Assembly: GCA_027025555.1 (NCBI GenBank)
Contig: JALVQN010000226.1
Span: forward strand, 1-55,415
DNA from: Desulfobacterales bacterium
GTDB lineage: Bacteria > Desulfobacterota > Desulfobacteria > Desulfobacterales > UBA2156
Direction of reading: 5' to 3'
Length of the DNA: 55,415 nt
Below the pieces are notes generated by a model that saw only the letters and a program-made list of their open reading frames with translations, was not told where the DNA came from and did not search any database. Made by a program: the position numbers and the translations under genes. Shown piece by piece: positions 39,135 to 45,802 of this stretch. Positions within the stretch are counted from its first letter, which is position 1. Each line of letters opens with the position of its first letter.

Positions 39135-42100
39135 TCAATTTGCAACCGGATCCGGCACTGAAACAGGGATACGCTTGCCCGGTTGAGGGGATGCAGGCCA
39201 GCTCTTGCAAAGGGCCGACACCCCATGGACCGTGAGGGTGACGGCCTGGAATTCTTCTTCCACTTTTCCGGAAAGGATAAAGGGCCTGGAGTTGTCCACC
39301 CCGGCACGGAAGCGGCGATAGGTTTCAGGAAAAAAGGTGGTCTCCAAAAGGCCGGTCTCGTCTTCAAAGGTGAGAAACGCCATGGGATCCCCGTGCCGGG
39401 TATGGACCCGTTTTCCGGTGATCAGAAGCCCGGCCACCTTCACGGTTTTTCCCACAAAGCGATGCAGGTCCCTGGCCTTGACGATTCCCCTGTTTCGAAG
39501 CTGTTGGGCAAAAAGGGTCATGGGGTGTCGATCGCAGAGGAATCCGAGTACCGCGAACATGTTTTTCAGGCGCTGCCTTTCGTCGTCGGGCGGAAGATGC
39601 GGCTTCGGGGGTGGGGGGGCGCTTGCAAAGAGATCCGTTTCTGGAAGGCGACCGCGTTGCCATGCAGCCAGGGCCCAGAGCAGATCGGCACGGCTTTCCC
39701 CGGGATGGAGGGCGTCGAAGGCGCCGGCGTGGATGAGGCGCCGGGCCTCGGAGGCATCGGGCCGGACCCGGTCCAGGAAATCGAGAAGGCTCCGGTAGGG
39801 ACCGGCGTTTCGCCGGGCAACGATCTTTTCCCGGGTGGCACGGCCGAGCCCTGAAATGGAGCGCAGACCCACCCGGAGGGTCTTGCCCTTGCCCTTCCAC
39901 CGGATTTCGCTCCCATTGACATCCGGCGAAAGGACCGTGAGGCCCATGCGGCGGGCTTCTGACACATAGGCAAAAGGGCTGTAGTAGCCCCCCTGGTTGC
40001 TGAGGACGGCGGCCATGAACTCGGCCGGAAAGTGGGTCTTCAAAAAGGCGGCCTGGAAGGAGACCCGGGCGTAGCTGGCACTGTGGGGCTTGCAGAAAGA
40101 GTAGCCCTCGAAGCTCATTATCATGTCCCAGACGGCATCGATGCACGCCCTGGGAATTTTCCGGCCCAGGGCGCCCGCCGCAAAGCGCCTCCGGTAGTCT
40201 TTGAGCCGCTTTTCCCTGTCCTTCTTGGACAGGATTTTCCGGAGCCCGTCGGCTTCCACATGGGAAAAGCCGGCCAGGGCCACCGCCGCCTTGGAGACGT
40301 CCTCCTGGTACACCAGGATGCCGAGGGTCTCGTCGAGGACGTCTTTCAGGAGGGGATGGAGGGGCTTCCAGGGCCTGCCGTGGAGGCGGCGGAGATACTC
40401 GCGGATGTACCGGTTGGCCGCCGGCCGGATGATGCTGCTGTGGATGACCAGATGCTCGAAGTCGCCTGTTCCGGCCTTTTTCTGGAGCAGACGCATGGCC
40501 GGGCTTTCGATGTAAAAACACCCCATGGTCCTTCCTTCGGCCACGCAGCGCCGGGTGGCCGGATCCGCTTCCGGCTCCCAGCGGGTTTCGTCGAAACGAA
40601 TGCCGTTTTCCTTCACGTTGGCGACGGCGTCCCGGATCACCCCCAGGCTCCGGTTGCCCAAAAGGTCGATCTTGACCATGCCGCCCGCCTCGGTGCCGTC
40701 CTTTTCCCACTGGATGACGGGCACGCCCTTGGGCGTCGCTTGCACGGGCACGTAGTCGCGGACGGGCCCGGGCGTGATCACCACTCCCCCGGCATGGACC
40801 GAAAGATGGCGGGGAATGCCGATGAGCCTCCGGGCCAGCTTGAAGATTGCCGGCCACGGGTCCGGGAAGTCCAGGCCTTGCAGTTCGGGCATTTTCCGGA
40901 CCCGGGCCGGGATGTCTTCTCCCTGGTTTTCCATGCGCCAGAACCCGGGGAGGCGCTTGGAGATCCGGCCGATCTCGGCCTCTGTGAGCCCGAAGGTCCT
41001 GGCGGTTTCCCGGAGGGCCGCTTTCGGTTGGAAGGTCACGTGATTGCACACCATGGCACTGTGTCCGGCATACTGCTTCAGGACCTTTTCAAGGACGCGA
41101 TCCCGTTCGTCCCAGGCAAAGTCCACGTCCATGTCCGGCGGGTCGTTTCGCCCCGGGTTCAAGAATCGCTCGAAGTAGAGGTGATGGGTGATGGGGCAGA
41201 CGTGGGTGATTCCCAGGGCATAGGCCACCAGGGAAGCGGCGGCGCTTCCCCGGCCGCAGGTCCGGGGGCTGTTTTTTACGATGTCCCGGACCACCAGAAA
41301 ATAGGCGGAAAACCCCATCTTTTCGATGACGGCCAGTTCCTGTTCCATGCGCTCCACCACGGTCTCCGGGAGATCTTCGCCGTAGCGCTTTCGGGCCCCT
41401 TCATAGGCCTGCTGGCGCAGCACCCGGGAGGCCGTCCGGCCGTGCGGGTCGGTCCAGGGCGGCAGCACCACGCCGAACCGGGGGGCCGTGAAGGTGAGGC
41501 GTTCGGCCAGGGCATGGGAGGCCCCCAGGGCTTCGGGAAAAAGGTGAAAGCGCTGCCTGTAGACGGAGGGCGGCGCCAAAAAGGCCTCCGGGGGGGCCGT
41601 GTCGCCGGGCGCCAGCCGGGAAAGCAGGGTCCTTTTGGCGATGGCCCGGAGGAGGCGGTGGACGGTGAAATCCTCGGGCGCGCCGAAGAGGATTTCCGGG
41701 GCGGCCACAAAGGGGATGCCGAGGCGGCGGGACAGGGCCTCCAGGACCCGGCCATGGGCGTCTCTGCCCCTGGAAAGGGCGGCGGCCACGCACACCCCGG
41801 CCTCATGCCAGAAGGCGATCCATGCCGGCACCGCGGCCAGGACGACGAGGCCTTTGGCGAAGCGGGGAAGGGCGGTCTTCAAGTCAAAGGGCTCCCTGCC
41901 GTGGCGACGGGTGATGAGGCGGCAGAGGTTGCGATACCCGGTCTCGTCTTCCACCAGGCATACGGCCCGGTTTCCTGACGCCGGGTCCGTCAAGGTGGCG
42001 CCGACCATGGGCCGGATCCCTGCCTCGGCGCATCCTTTGAGGAAGCTCCAGAGGCCGTAGAGGCCGTCCGTGTCCACAAGGGCCATCCGGCCGTATCCCA

Positions 42101-42185
42101 GACGCCTTGCCCTTTGACAGAGCCGTTTCGGCGCCTCGGTTCCCTGCATCAGGGAGTAGTGGGAATGAACGGCCAGGGGAATCAT
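39135..42185 (-). CDS. dnaE2: error-prone DNA polymerase III alpha-like subunit (DnaE2/ImuC)
   Basis: A 1016-residue C-family polymerase. The N-terminal PHP domain starts with HSHYSLMQG; the palm carries PDMDVDFAWDERD with the catalytic Asp pair and the third Asp in VKIDLLGN; the C-terminal part has a helix-hairpin-helix and an OB fold. The length, shorter than replicative DnaE (about 1160), and its operon partners mark it as DnaE2, the polymerase of the damage-induced mutasome. Starts 3 bases after the Y-family gene's stop, so they are translated together. It synthesises across lesions and causes mutation when LexA is cleaved. Confidence 0.92.
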   Translation of the reverse strand: MIPLAVHSHYSLMQGTEAPKRLCQRARRLGYGRMALVDTDGLYGLWSFLKGCAEAGIRPMVGATLTDPASGNRAVCLVEDETGYRNLCRLITRRHGREPFDLKTALPRFAKGLVVLAAVPAWIAFWHEAGVCVAAALSRGRDAHGRVLEALSRRLGIPFVAAPEILFGAPEDFTVHRLLRAIAKRTLLSRLAPGDTAPPEAFLAPPSVYRQRFHLFPEALGASHALAERLTFTAPRFGVVLPPWTDPHGRTASRVLRQQAYEGARKRYGEDLPETVVERMEQELAVIEKMGFSAYFLVVRDIVKNSPRTCGRGSAAASLVAYALGITHVCPITHHLYFERFLNPGRNDPPDMDVDFAWDERDRVLEKVLKQYAGHSAMVCNHVTFQPKAALRETARTFGLTEAEIGRISKRLPGFWRMENQGEDIPARVRKMPELQGLDFPDPWPAIFKLARRLIGIPRHLSVHAGGVVITPGPVRDYVPVQATPKGVPVIQWEKDGTEAGGMVKIDLLGNRSLGVIRDAVANVKENGIRFDETRWEPEADPATRRCVAEGRTMGCFYIESPAMRLLQKKAGTGDFEHLVIHSSIIRPAANRYIREYLRRLHGRPWKPLHPLLKDVLDETLGILVYQEDVSKAAVALAGFSHVEADGLRKILSKKDREKRLKDYRRRFAAGALGRKIPRACIDAVWDMIMSFEGYSFCKPHSASYARVSFQAAFLKTHFPAEFMAAVLSNQGGYYSPFAYVSEARRMGLTVLSPDVNGSEIRWKGKGKTLRVGLRSISGLGRATREKIVARRNAGPYRSLLDFLDRVRPDASEARRLIHAGAFDALHPGESRADLLWALAAWQRGRLPETDLFASAPPPPKPHLPPDDERQRLKNMFAVLGFLCDRHPMTLFAQQLRNRGIVKARDLHRFVGKTVKVAGLLITGKRVHTRHGDPMAFLTFEDETGLLETTFFPETYRRFRAGVDNSRPFILSGKVEEEFQAVTLTVHGVSALCKSWPASPQPGKRIPVSVPDPVAN

Positions 42186-42188
42186 GGG

Positions 42189-43367
42189 TCAGGCGGCAAG
42201 CATCCGCCCGGTCCGCACGGCGGCCTCTCCGAAGCGGCTCCGGACGGCGTCCAGGGCGCGGATCAGGCGCTCTTTTGGGTGCTTTTCCCCGGCGGTTTCG
42301 AGGAAAAGGTCCTGCTGGACCGGCGGCGGGTAGGTGAGCCGACGGCAGGTCAGACTCAGACGGCGGATCCGGACGCGACGTTTCCAGGTGTCTTTCAAAA
42401 GGGCCGCGGCAAGCGGAAAGAGGGCAAAATCGTTGGCCGACGGCGGGACGATCCGGATCTTCCGGCTGATTCGGATGCCGTCGGAATAGTCCATGGAAAG
42501 CCGCATGCGGCGGGCGGCCAGCCGTTTTCGGCGCAAGGCGGCGCCGGCCTGTTCCACGAGGCTGAAGAGGGCCCTTTCGAGCGCCGTCAGGGTGTGGGCG
42601 TCTTCGCCGAAGAGATGCGTCACGGTCACCACGGGGGGCGCGTGGGACAAAGGGAAGAGGGGCGACGGATCGATGCCGTGGACCGCTTCGTGGAGCATCC
42701 TTCCCCGCCGGCCGAAAAGGAGGGTGAGCTGGTCTTCGGAGAGGCGGGCCACCTCTCCCGCCCGGGTCAGATTGAGCTCCAAAAGCCGCCGGACCTCCTC
42801 GGCCTCCACACCGGGGATCAGGTGGACGGGGACGGGATCCAGGAAGGCCCTTTCTTCTCCGGCGCCCACGATGTACTCGCCGGAGGGTTTCACCACGCGG
42901 GTGGCCACTTTGGCCACCAGCTTGTTGGGGCCCACGGACCAGATGGGATCCAGTCCCATGGCGGCGCGCACCCTTTTCCGGATGCGCCAGGCCAGAGCCG
43001 GCGGGGGGCCGAAGAGCCTCCCGGTCCCGGTGACGTCGAGGAAAAGATGCCCCCGGGAGTCCGGGACCTCCACCAGGGGCGTATAGGGAAGGGCCTGTTT
43101 CACGAGCATCCGCACGGCCTTTTCGTAGCAGTGGGGCTGGGGCGGGAGAACGTGGGCACCGGGACAGCGCCGCAGGGCCTTTCGCAGGGCCATCCCCTTG
43201 CGCACCCCGCTTTGGTATGCCTCCTCGCTCATGTCGTATATGACGGCCCGGGGGGTGCCCCGGGGCGCGATGAGGAGGGGGCGCCGGCGGAGCCGGGGAT
43301 CGAGGCGCCGCTCCAGCGTTGCCGCGAAGTCGGCCACGTTGATGTGGATGATGAACCGCTCCCGCAT
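42189..43367 (-). CDS. imuB: ImuB-like Y-family protein lacking catalytic carboxylates
   Basis: A 392-residue Y-family polymerase homologue. The N-terminal metal site, usually IHxDMDxFF, reads IIHINVADF (Asn10 in the Asp place), and the SIDEA site reads SRGHLFLD (Gly106 and His107 where Asp and Glu stand). All three catalytic carboxylates are thus missing, as in ImuB, which serves as a hub rather than as a polymerase. The sequence QQDLF at 351-355 fits a beta-clamp-binding motif. Translationally coupled with DUF72 (1-base gap) and dnaE2 (3-base gap). Named ImuB by architecture; sequence is otherwise close to DinB. Confidence 0.85.
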   Translation of the reverse strand: MRERFIIHINVADFAATLERRLDPRLRRRPLLIAPRGTPRAVIYDMSEEAYQSGVRKGMALRKALRRCPGAHVLPPQPHCYEKAVRMLVKQALPYTPLVEVPDSRGHLFLDVTGTGRLFGPPPALAWRIRKRVRAAMGLDPIWSVGPNKLVAKVATRVVKPSGEYIVGAGEERAFLDPVPVHLIPGVEAEEVRRLLELNLTRAGEVARLSEDQLTLLFGRRGRMLHEAVHGIDPSPLFPLSHAPPVVTVTHLFGEDAHTLTALERALFSLVEQAGAALRRKRLAARRMRLSMDYSDGIRISRKIRIVPPSANDFALFPLAAALLKDTWKRRVRIRRLSLTCRRLTYPPPVQQDLFLETAGEKHPKERLIRALDAVRSRFGEAAVRTGRMLAA

Positions 43368-43368
43368 G

Positions 43369-44181
43369 TCATGCCGGTGTGAGTCCCCGGGCCTTGAGGA
43401 GGCGTATGAGCCGCAGGGCGTTTTCCGGGGCCTGGGCCCGCACGTGGTTGTTGAAAAAGAGGACGCCCCGACGGGCCCGTTGGGCCATGGGGGCGATCCG
43501 TTTTTCGATGCACTCCATCAGTTCCGCGTCGCTGTAATTGTAATCGAACTGGAGATGCATCTTCCCGGATCGCCACCCCCGGGCGTTTCGGCCGTGGAAC
43601 CGGACATAAAAAAGATCGGGATGGGAGACCTCCACCATGGGGGGGAAGCGCCCCGGAAGATTCGGTGCATCCACACTCACCAGCGTGACCCGGCGCCGGG
43701 ACAACTGGGAAAAGACACGCGCGGCGGCCCAGGATCTGTGCCGGAACTCCACGGCCAGGGGAAGCCCCTCCAGCGCGTCGATGAGGGCGGCCAGGTACTT
43801 TCGGTTGTCGGGAGTGCGGGCGAAGGAGGGGGGCATCTGGAGCAACACCGCCACCAGCTGGCCGGTTTGAAGGAGGGGGGCGATGCCCTCCCGGTAGGCG
43901 GCGGCCTCCTTTTTCCAGCCATGCGCATCCACTTCGTGGGTGAGGGTGCGCGTGAGCTTGGCGGCGAACAAGAAATCGTCCGGCACCTGGGATCGCTGGC
44001 GTTCCACGGCTTCGGGGCGGGGCATCTGATACCAGGTGTAGTTGAGCTCGGTGACGGGAAACTTTTGGGCGTAAAAGGAAAGCATCCGGCCGGAAGGGGT
44101 CCCTTCCGGATAGAACCCGGCCTTCACCCACTCGGTGTAGGAGTAGCCGCTGGTGCCGACAAAGAGGGGGCAACCGGCCAT
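43369..44181 (-). CDS. DUF72 (YecE-like) family protein
   Basis: A 270-residue TIM-barrel-type protein of DUF72: start VGTSGYSYTEWVKAGFYPEG, central ELNYTWYQMP, VEFRHRSW and a C-terminal FFNNHVRAQAPENA. Its function is not established. It sits between lexA (9-base gap) and imuB (1-base gap), the place usually taken by imuA in mutasome operons. That makes a role in DNA-damage tolerance likely. No RecA-like motif (Walker A) is visible, so it is not a hidden ImuA. Confidence 0.9.
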   Translation of the reverse strand: MAGCPLFVGTSGYSYTEWVKAGFYPEGTPSGRMLSFYAQKFPVTELNYTWYQMPRPEAVERQRSQVPDDFLFAAKLTRTLTHEVDAHGWKKEAAAYREGIAPLLQTGQLVAVLLQMPPSFARTPDNRKYLAALIDALEGLPLAVEFRHRSWAAARVFSQLSRRRVTLVSVDAPNLPGRFPPMVEVSHPDLFYVRFHGRNARGWRSGKMHLQFDYNYSDAELMECIEKRIAPMAQRARRGVLFFNNHVRAQAPENALRLIRLLKARGLTPA

Positions 44182-44190
44182 CTCGAATCC

Positions 44191-44829
44191 TTACAGCCTT
44201 TCCATGACGTCGGGTCCCCGGTGAATACCGATGACCTTGCCCTGGATCAGGACTTCGTCGAAGCCGTAGATTCCGGGACGGTGGGCGGGATTTTCGGGGC
44301 GCAGCTCGATGTGTGTCTTTTCAAGGAAAAAGCGTTTCACCGTGGCCTCTTCCTGGCGGATCAAGACCGCCACGATTTCTCCGTTTTCAGCAAACTGGCG
44401 GGGCTTGCAGATGGCCAGATCCCCGGACAGGATCCCGGCGTCTCTCATGGAATCGCCCTGGATTCTGAGGGCGAAAAGGACACTTTCTTGGTAGAGGGTT
44501 GCATCCACCACCAGGCTTCCTTCCCAGGCCTGCCGGGCGTACAGGGGCAACCCGGCGGCGATGCGTCCCACGATGGGCACTTCCCGGCCGCGGGAAAGCC
44601 CCGCCGGCGCCCCGGTGCGGGAAAGGATGTGGACGGTTCGGCCGTAGCGTCCCGCCCGGCGGAGCACCCCCTTTTTTTCGAGAATCCGGATCATCTGGGA
44701 GACGGCGGCATGGCTGACCCCCATGTGGGCGGCCGCCCGGCGCAGGCTGGGCGTCCGGCCGGTTTCCGACGTTTCCCTTGTCAGATACGCCAAAAGGCGC
44801 TGTTGTTTTGCTGTGAGTCCTGCCGGCAT
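44191..44829 (-). CDS. lexA: LexA-type SOS repressor
   Basis: A 212-residue protein. The N-terminal winged helix (about 1-65, SLRRAAAHMGVSHAAVSQMI) is followed by a self-cleavage site Ala92-Gly93 (IAAGLP), then the catalytic Ser127 (QGDSMRDAG) and Lys165 (ATVKRFF). RecA-stimulated cleavage releases the DNA and induces the operon. The start ATG at 44829 has GGAGG 9 bases upstream; the frame continues upstream without a good site. The protein most likely represses its own operon through the direct repeats over its promoter. Confidence 0.92.
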   Translation of the reverse strand: MPAGLTAKQQRLLAYLTRETSETGRTPSLRRAAAHMGVSHAAVSQMIRILEKKGVLRRAGRYGRTVHILSRTGAPAGLSRGREVPIVGRIAAGLPLYARQAWEGSLVVDATLYQESVLFALRIQGDSMRDAGILSGDLAICKPRQFAENGEIVAVLIRQEEATVKRFFLEKTHIELRPENPAHRPGIYGFDEVLIQGKVIGIHRGPDVMERL

Positions 44830-44866: not shown

Positions 44867-44895
44867 GTTCTACCCTCCTGAAATGTAAATGTCAA
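44867..44895 (-). promoter_or_regulatory. lexA-operon promoter
   Basis: On the minus strand TTGACA (44895-44890), then 17 bases, then TAGAAC (44872-44867). The -35 lies between the first and second of three ATGTAAA repeats. The +1 region should be just before the GGAGG ribosome site of lexA. Confidence 0.6.
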
Positions 44896-44914
44896 TGTAA
44901 ATATGAATGTAAAC
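44883..44914. repeat. three 12-bp-spaced direct repeats, candidate LexA operator
   Basis: ATGTAAA occurs at 44883-44889, 44895-44901 and 44907-44913, with exact 12-base spacing (minus strand TTTACAT). They surround and overlap the -35 box. This is unlike the E. coli CTG-N10-CAG or Gram-positive GAAC-N4-GTTC operators. It is the best candidate for LexA binding, or for a second regulator of the divergent isomerase gene. Confidence 0.55.
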
Positions 44915-45004
44915 AAAAAATCCTTCCCGGTCAGATGCCGGGCTTTTATTTCGACCGGGCAGGTGGTAAAAGCGGAAACGTCCGGCGTGCGAAAAGGAGA
45001 ACCC

Positions 45005-45802
45005 ATGCAATACGGTGCCATGAACCATCCGATTTTGCCTGTTCTCGATGAGATTGAGGCCGTGGCGGCGATGGGGTTTGACTACCTGGAGCTGGCCATG
45101 GATGCGCCCCAAGCGCACCATGCAAAGATCCGCAGTCAAGAAAGGCGGATTCTGCAGGCCCTTGCCGCCTCCGGCCTGGACCTGGTCTGCCACCTGCCCA
45201 CCTTTCTCCATCTGGCCGATTTGACCCCGCGCATCCGGGAGGCGTCCCTGTTGGAGATGAAGGCGGCGCTGCATGCCGCCGCGGCCTTGGCCCCCCGGAA
45301 GGTGGTCCTTCATCCGCCCTATATCGGCGGACTGGGGCCCTTGGTGATGGAACACTCCATGGCCTTGGCCCTGGAGAGCCTGGAGATCCTTTTTGCCGAG
45401 GCGGCCCGTTTGGGCTTGACCGTGTGCCTGGAAAACATGTTCCCGAAATACCCCGGATGGATCGACCCCGGGGACTTTGTCCCGCTTTTTGAACGATTTC
45501 CCGCACTGGAACTGACCCTGGACGTGGGCCACGCCCATATCGGAAGCAAGCGGGACGATCGCATTCTGTCTTTCATCCACACCTTCGGCCGGCGCATCGG
45601 CCATGTCCATGTGAGCGACAACCGGGGAAAGGCGGACGAGCACCTTCCGGTGGGAGACGGGACCATTGATTTTGAAAAGATCCTCAAGGCCCTCAAACGG
45701 GCGGGATACGAGGGCGCCTTGACCTTGGAGATCTTTTCATCGAACCGGCATGATGTGAAAAGAAGCAGGAATCGCATCGAGGGGCTTTTGCTTGAAACGT
45801 GA
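45005..45802 (+). CDS. sugar-phosphate isomerase/epimerase family TIM barrel (xylose isomerase-like)
   Basis: A 265-residue TIM-barrel protein of the AP-endonuclease-2/xylose-isomerase-like superfamily. Metal-binding segments are visible: MGFDYLELAMD (Glu), VLHPPYIGG (His), CLENMF (Glu), TLDVGHAHI (Asp and His), GHVHVSDN (His and Asp) and TLEIF (Glu). The ATG at 45005 has AAAGGAG 6 bases upstream, whereas a longer frame to 44903 lacks a ribosome site. It is transcribed away from lexA. Such proteins isomerise sugars or cleave abasic DNA (endonuclease IV); which applies here cannot be told, but being next to the SOS operon, a DNA-repair role deserves checking. Confidence 0.85.
   Translation: MQYGAMNHPILPVLDEIEAVAAMGFDYLELAMDAPQAHHAKIRSQERRILQALAASGLDLVCHLPTFLHLADLTPRIREASLLEMKAALHAAAALAPRKVVLHPPYIGGLGPLVMEHSMALALESLEILFAEAARLGLTVCLENMFPKYPGWIDPGDFVPLFERFPALELTLDVGHAHIGSKRDDRILSFIHTFGRRIGHVHVSDNRGKADEHLPVGDGTIDFEKILKALKRAGYEGALTLEIFSSNRHDVKRSRNRIEGLLLET

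Follow-up and report, generated by a model that had tools for sequence, protein, structure and literature searches.

The lexA-DUF72-iPolY-dnaE2 cassette

Contig JALVQN010000226.1 of a Desulfobacterales bacterium (assembly GCA_027025555.1; 2.68 Mb, 96.8% complete), analyzed over its whole length of 55,415 nt (here called the window), carries four genes that, on balance, we read as a lesion-bypass cassette under SOS control, of the DnaE2B-iPolY-RecA kind, with an enzyme of the DUF72 family as an added, dispensable accessory. The genes lie on the minus strand in the order lexA, DUF72, iPolY (an inactivated Y-family polymerase), and dnaE2. Their coordinates confirmed exactly the operon proposed in an initial annotation of this DNA, with intergenic gaps of 9 (lexA/DUF72), 1 (DUF72/iPolY), and 3 (iPolY/dnaE2) bases. 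The same annotation had DUF72 stand in the place of ImuA; this is not supported, because DUF72 seems to have been gained on a sub-branch of the cassette lineage and lost repeatedly, with the rest of the cassette intact. The parts of the locus are as follows.

44882-44913, minus strand: putative operator for LexA, made up of three direct repeats of TTTACATT at a spacing of 12 bp, which overlaps the -35 box
44191-44829, minus strand: lexA (TIGR00498, 158 bits)
43369-44181, minus strand: DUF72 TIM-barrel protein, 270 aa (PF01904, 198 bits)
42189-43367, minus strand: iPolY, inactivated Y-family polymerase (IMS and IMS_C domains)
39135-42185, minus strand: DnaE2 of a DnaE2B-like clade (Pfam domains PHP, Pol III alpha, finger, HHH, and OB)

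An inactivated Y-family protein with a RecA-NT-like motif

The iPolY protein was nearest in sequence to Pol IV structures, and its catalytic residues are gone (Pol IV D8 is N10, and D103/E104 are G/H). The same residues were lost in all cassette iPolYs examined. No ImuB-C domain was found with phmmer, the only search used for it, whether within iPolY or encoded separately at the cassette loci, and for this reason we name the protein iPolY rather than a true ImuB; the earlier label "ImuB-like" holds in the sense of a catalytically dead Y-family protein. A QQDLF clamp-type motif is present, in which Q351 and L354 are invariant. The C-terminal end is a RecA-NT-like motif (ERLIRALDAVRSRFGEAAV in the window, compared with ERIKAVESAISQIERQFGKGAI in the RecA of the same genome), with the consensus L..A.D.IR.RFG..A among iPolYs. 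When iPolYs were matched without gaps to the RecA of the window genome, the best match kept one register in 61 of the 92 rows, with a mean z of 3.7, and the motif was found in cassettes both with and without DUF72. Motifs of this type have been proposed to bind RecA where ImuA is absent (PMC6511836, PMC12926913). Since iPolY retains the docking motif whether or not DUF72 is present, RecA, and not DUF72, probably fills the ImuA slot.

DnaE2 phylogeny and cassette history

The polymerase aspartate motifs (PDxDxD and KxDxL) were intact in 68 of 68 cassette DnaE2s, and a domain search gave no match to the tau-binding C-terminal domain in the window DnaE2. In a quick tree rooted on DnaE1 of the window genome (pieced together from the ends of two contigs), the cassette DnaE2s formed a single fully supported clade that was separate from those of ImuA/ImuB type in the same phylum (L127-L131; each group is starred in the tree) and also from the DnaE2X type with a separate ImuB-C (L132). 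ImuA never accompanies this clade. In its basal members (L115, L120, L121, L125, and L126), iPolY-dnaE2 is present, mostly together with lexA, and both ImuA and DUF72 are absent. Because the earliest-branching cassettes are without both genes, DUF72 looks to have been inserted between lexA and iPolY on a sub-branch and then lost several times, on a parsimony reading of the tree.

The closest published system is the putative DnaE2B-iPolY-RecA mutasome of the gbDinB2/scDinB2 groups (PMC6511836, PMC12926913). Both have an active DnaE2 outside the ImuA clade, a dead Y-family partner with a RecA-NT motif, no ImuA, no ImuB-C, and often lexA. In the window, the DnaE2 is intact, without the C-terminal domain, and linked in an operon to an inactive Y-family protein bearing the RecA-NT-like motif, in a genome without ImuA. 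The likeness to DnaE2B/gbDinB2 is drawn from these features. Unlike that system, the cassette has a DUF72 gene between lexA and iPolY, and neither paper mentions DUF72 in its text. With the classical lexA-imuA-imuB-dnaE2 mutasome, the cassette shares an SOS-controlled operon, a dead Y-family protein, and a non-essential DnaE polymerase. It differs in encoding no ImuA, in having no ImuB-C domain, in placing its DnaE2 in a different deep clade, and in its second position, which is taken by a RecA homologue in the classical system and by DUF72 here. We found no description of the DUF72 cassette in the main text of the papers searched; it may be listed in a supplement. PMC5720831, considered as a paper on DUF72 with ImuB/DnaE2, was set aside; it appears to concern DUF721, and a whole-word search for DUF72 misses it.

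Search for ImuA

As initially noted, imuA is absent from the window. Nor was a separate copy found elsewhere in the assembly, where NF033429 and a genuine Desulfobacterota ImuA used as queries matched only RecA. Among 98 genomes of the order, ImuA matches look, by length and score, like RecA or other RecA/KaiC-like ATPases, apart from one weak match (E value, 6e-4) in G180, which lacks this iPolY. NF033429 was dropped as a detector of imuA since its own cutoff was reached by no genome, true ImuA carriers included; weaker E values were used, and true ImuA was recognized by adjacency to a divergent Y-family gene (G129, G018, and G052). No convincing imuA was found in the order.

Spread and linkage of the cassette

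The cassette was surveyed at loci of the 80 best relatives of the window DUF72 (Desulfobacterota-type records, mostly Desulfobacterales). Because these loci were picked by DUF72 similarity, the genome-based sample of 98 was added. Where contigs were long enough, 69 of 73 loci had lexA upstream of DUF72, and downstream of it iPolY was present in 64 of 69 and dnaE2 in 48 of 54; the full four-gene order was found in 41 of 48 resolvable contigs. Conservation across dozens of species argues that the arrangement is not due to chance. The DUF72-iPolY junction is the tightest of the operon (median spacing, 8 bp; often overlapping).

iPolY was found in 42 of the 98 genomes, and in 33 of these DUF72 lies directly upstream on the same strand, so that the linkage is not peculiar to one genome. 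The nine other iPolY genomes comprise five without a cassette-type DUF72, one truncated where its contig ends (G191), one whose lexA-DUF72 and iPolY-dnaE2 halves lie at the ends of two contigs and could be joined (G195; L157 and L158), and two with the cassette genes on separate contigs (G178 and G202). Cassette-type DUF72 and iPolY occurred together in 36 genomes, iPolY alone in 6, DUF72 alone in 1, and neither in 55 (Fisher P, ~2e-19, with phylogeny ignored). Thus, 1 of 37 cassette-type DUF72s in the order lies outside iPolY genomes (L166 in G217, where it is kept alone). The initial view of DUF72 as a conserved, tightly coupled, and co-regulated member of a translesion cassette is upheld across Desulfobacterales.

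The whole cassette is also present on the Desulfosarcina ovata plasmid Do28_1 (L185, 7304-13079), where iPolY is annotated as a "hypothetical protein." The plasmid is mobilizable; traA is ~3 kb away from the cassette, and an IS200/IS605 transposase is ~2 kb away. This location suggests horizontal spread of the cassette. Viral contigs encoded no relative of DUF72 or iPolY. Two cassettes seem to be decaying, both with operator and lexA intact: one has an internal deletion in DUF72 and no iPolY that we could find (L227, 4647-5710; G208:C102), and in the other DUF72 and iPolY are broken into several frames (L169, 7361-8952; G206:C179).

A putative direct-repeat operator upstream of lexA

The cassette lexA encodes the single LexA found in the assembly, with an Ala-Gly cleavage site (IAAG) and the Ser (GDSM) and Lys (VKR) motifs. 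Upstream of it lies TTTACATTCATATTTACATTGACATTTACATT, which consists of the three TTTACATT repeats. The element overlaps a -35 box, TTGACA (44890-44895), separated by a 17-bp spacer from a -10-like TAGAAC (44867-44872). Its core, TTTACATTGACATTTACAT, was present with at most 3 mismatches in 68 of 84 regions upstream of cassette lexA genes, whereas the best match in shuffled sequences had 6. All 18 exact copies in the 98 genomes stand at cassettes (the G192 copy at a contig end beside lexA), as do 29 of the 33 copies with at most 1 mismatch, one decayed cassette included. The window's own genome has TTTACATTGACATTTACAT only at the cassette, plus one 3-mismatch match at control level, and both halves of the split cassette in G202 carry the operator. 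No classical LexA box emerged from a search for gapped palindromes; what is conserved is the direct repeat. We infer that LexA binds this putative operator, through which lexA would be autoregulated. The SOS regulon visible by this motif is one operon.

A divergent AP_endonuc_2 gene (xylose isomerase-like TIM barrel; 44903-45802, plus strand) adjoins the operator. As listed, its 5' end overlaps the operator, and the true start is probably later; the gene is kept beside cassettes in close relatives only. With that exception, the window neighbors (HtpX, AP_endonuc_2, and GTPases) were not conserved beside cassettes and were rejected as cassette parts.

The DUF72 protein

The window protein scored 198 bits against PF01904, for which the curated cutoff is 25.3. 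In the DUF72 tree, the cassette proteins form one clade (support, 100*) on a long stem, apart from other DUF72s; the family as a whole was found in 9 of 14 well-known control genomes. The AlphaFold2 model (pLDDT, 94.9) matches the DUF72 structures 1vpq, 1vpy, and 1ztv with TM scores of 0.81 to 0.87, the highest being for TM1631 (1vpq; 0.87). Beyond these, there were weak TIM-barrel matches only, with endonuclease IV (Endo IV; bound to DNA) next in rank and UV-damage endonuclease (UVDE) and, equally, sugar epimerases among them. PF01904 was the only family matched, with no match to the Endo IV or UVDE sequence families and 8 to 14% identity in structural alignments; the resemblance to these enzymes is at the fold level only.

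Published modeling presents TM1631 as a DNA-binding protein that resembles Endo IV (PMC3828134). Most of the DNA-contact residues proposed there are kept in the cassette DUF72s, and the modeled lesion-probing Tyr47 of TM1631 corresponds to Trp50, which is invariant in all of them; H246 and Q250 are also specific to the cassette proteins. The pocket is conserved (N47, W50/Y51, K75, H82, Q115, E145, R147, R194, R198, and N245), which speaks for a catalytic or DNA-binding function and makes a pure scaffold less likely.

DUF72 beside other damage-tolerance genes

In two genomes (L167, 1-4919; L168, 398-4745), we found lexA-dnaE2-DUF72 with no neighboring Y-family gene, and there both DnaE2 and DUF72 come from clades other than those of the cassette. 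A third genome (L182, 7152-9265) has lexA, an isolated OB-fold protein like the DnaE2 C terminus, and then DUF72, possibly a decayed operon of the same kind with the OB domain retained. DUF72 is also enriched near genes of the PolB2-iRadA-PPB2 mutasome, which has DUF72 and SRAP neighbors (PMC11791011). That unrelated system likewise places DUF72 beside lexA and an error-prone polymerase, but its polymerase belongs to the B family and it has a RadA-like subunit. That damage-tolerance operons have recruited DUF72 independently is the best reason to credit it with a real role in them.

Two near-identical DUF72 genes of one genome (L146, 5363-8514; L173, 2-6083) lie elsewhere, one adjoining a RecD2 helicase gene and the other near dprA-topA-like genes. 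Two further candidate associations were dropped: near lexA-polY (family f10; L133-L135), DUF72 adjoins his genes outside the lexA-polY operon, and DUF72 genes on proteobacterial plasmids (L186-L188) have no translesion synthesis neighbors.

Possible roles of DUF72 in lesion bypass

In the accessory-enzyme reading that we favor, DNA damage would produce RecA filaments that trigger LexA cleavage, and the operon would be expressed. iPolY would link DnaE2 with both the beta clamp and RecA, the latter in the slot of classical ImuA, and DnaE2 would copy across the lesion. DUF72, with its Endo IV/UVDE-like TIM barrel, may bind or process damaged DNA before or after bypass, a step of which we are less sure. 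Several observations weigh against this reading. The RecA-NT similarity of the window iPolY is modest (z of ~2 versus the family mean of 3.7), and the structural likeness to Endo IV and UVDE is weak (TM score of ~0.5), no better than that to sugar epimerases. DUF72 is missing from the intact lexA-iPolY-dnaE2 cassettes L113, L159, L160, and L161, and in the split cassette L156 it remains with lexA, not with iPolY. At L020, L028, and L066, lexA-DUF72-iPolY has no dnaE2 in the next several kilobases, and near these loci no active partner for the dead polymerase is obvious.

A more specific proposal, possible but tentative, is that DUF72 serves a RecA-iPolY-DnaE2 mutasome as a subunit that binds or cuts DNA with specificity for damage, and that three or more error-prone polymerase systems (among them DnaE2B-iPolY, one with another DnaE2 clade, and PolB2) each recruited it on their own.

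DUF72 may instead be a stand-alone SOS repair enzyme, for example, one that incises or processes lesions, merely co-expressed and without functional contact with the bypass machinery; we regard this as rather unlikely. Its persistence with lexA in the split cassette fits co-regulation better than an obligate complex, it has been lost several times where iPolY-dnaE2 was retained, G217 keeps it alone, and the RecD2 and dprA-topA-like neighborhoods of other DUF72s point the same way. However, the near confinement of the cassette type to iPolY genomes (all but 1 of 37), the tight junction with iPolY, and the renewed association of lexA and dnaE2 with another DUF72 clade are harder to reconcile with a stand-alone enzyme.

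That DUF72 replaces ImuA structurally and functionally as the mutasome hub, as initially proposed, we consider very improbable. It does occupy the classical imuA position between lexA and the Y-family gene, and we found no imuA in this genome and no convincing one in the order. However, the fold is a different one (a TIM barrel), this separate DnaE2 lineage never occurs with ImuA and has neither gene in its basal members, iPolY keeps its RecA-NT-like motif with or without DUF72, and cassettes L159-L161 and L113 are intact without it. On our reading, DUF72 is not a RecA-like hub. Least probable of all is a passenger trapped between lexA and iPolY with no role in damage tolerance: DUF72 can be lost and belongs to a common family with other neighbors elsewhere, but it is retained at close spacing across a deep clade, its pocket is fully conserved, and it has been recruited repeatedly beside dnaE2/lexA and polB2 (PMC11791011).

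An ImuA-less DnaE2 cassette with its own putative direct-repeat operator is thus common in Desulfobacterales. For DUF72, a family with solved structures and no assigned function, the cassette offers a concrete, testable role in damage tolerance. If DUF72 does prove to be a subunit of the mutasome, this would be the first function for this widespread family, and translesion synthesis would gain a step in which lesions are recognized or processed.

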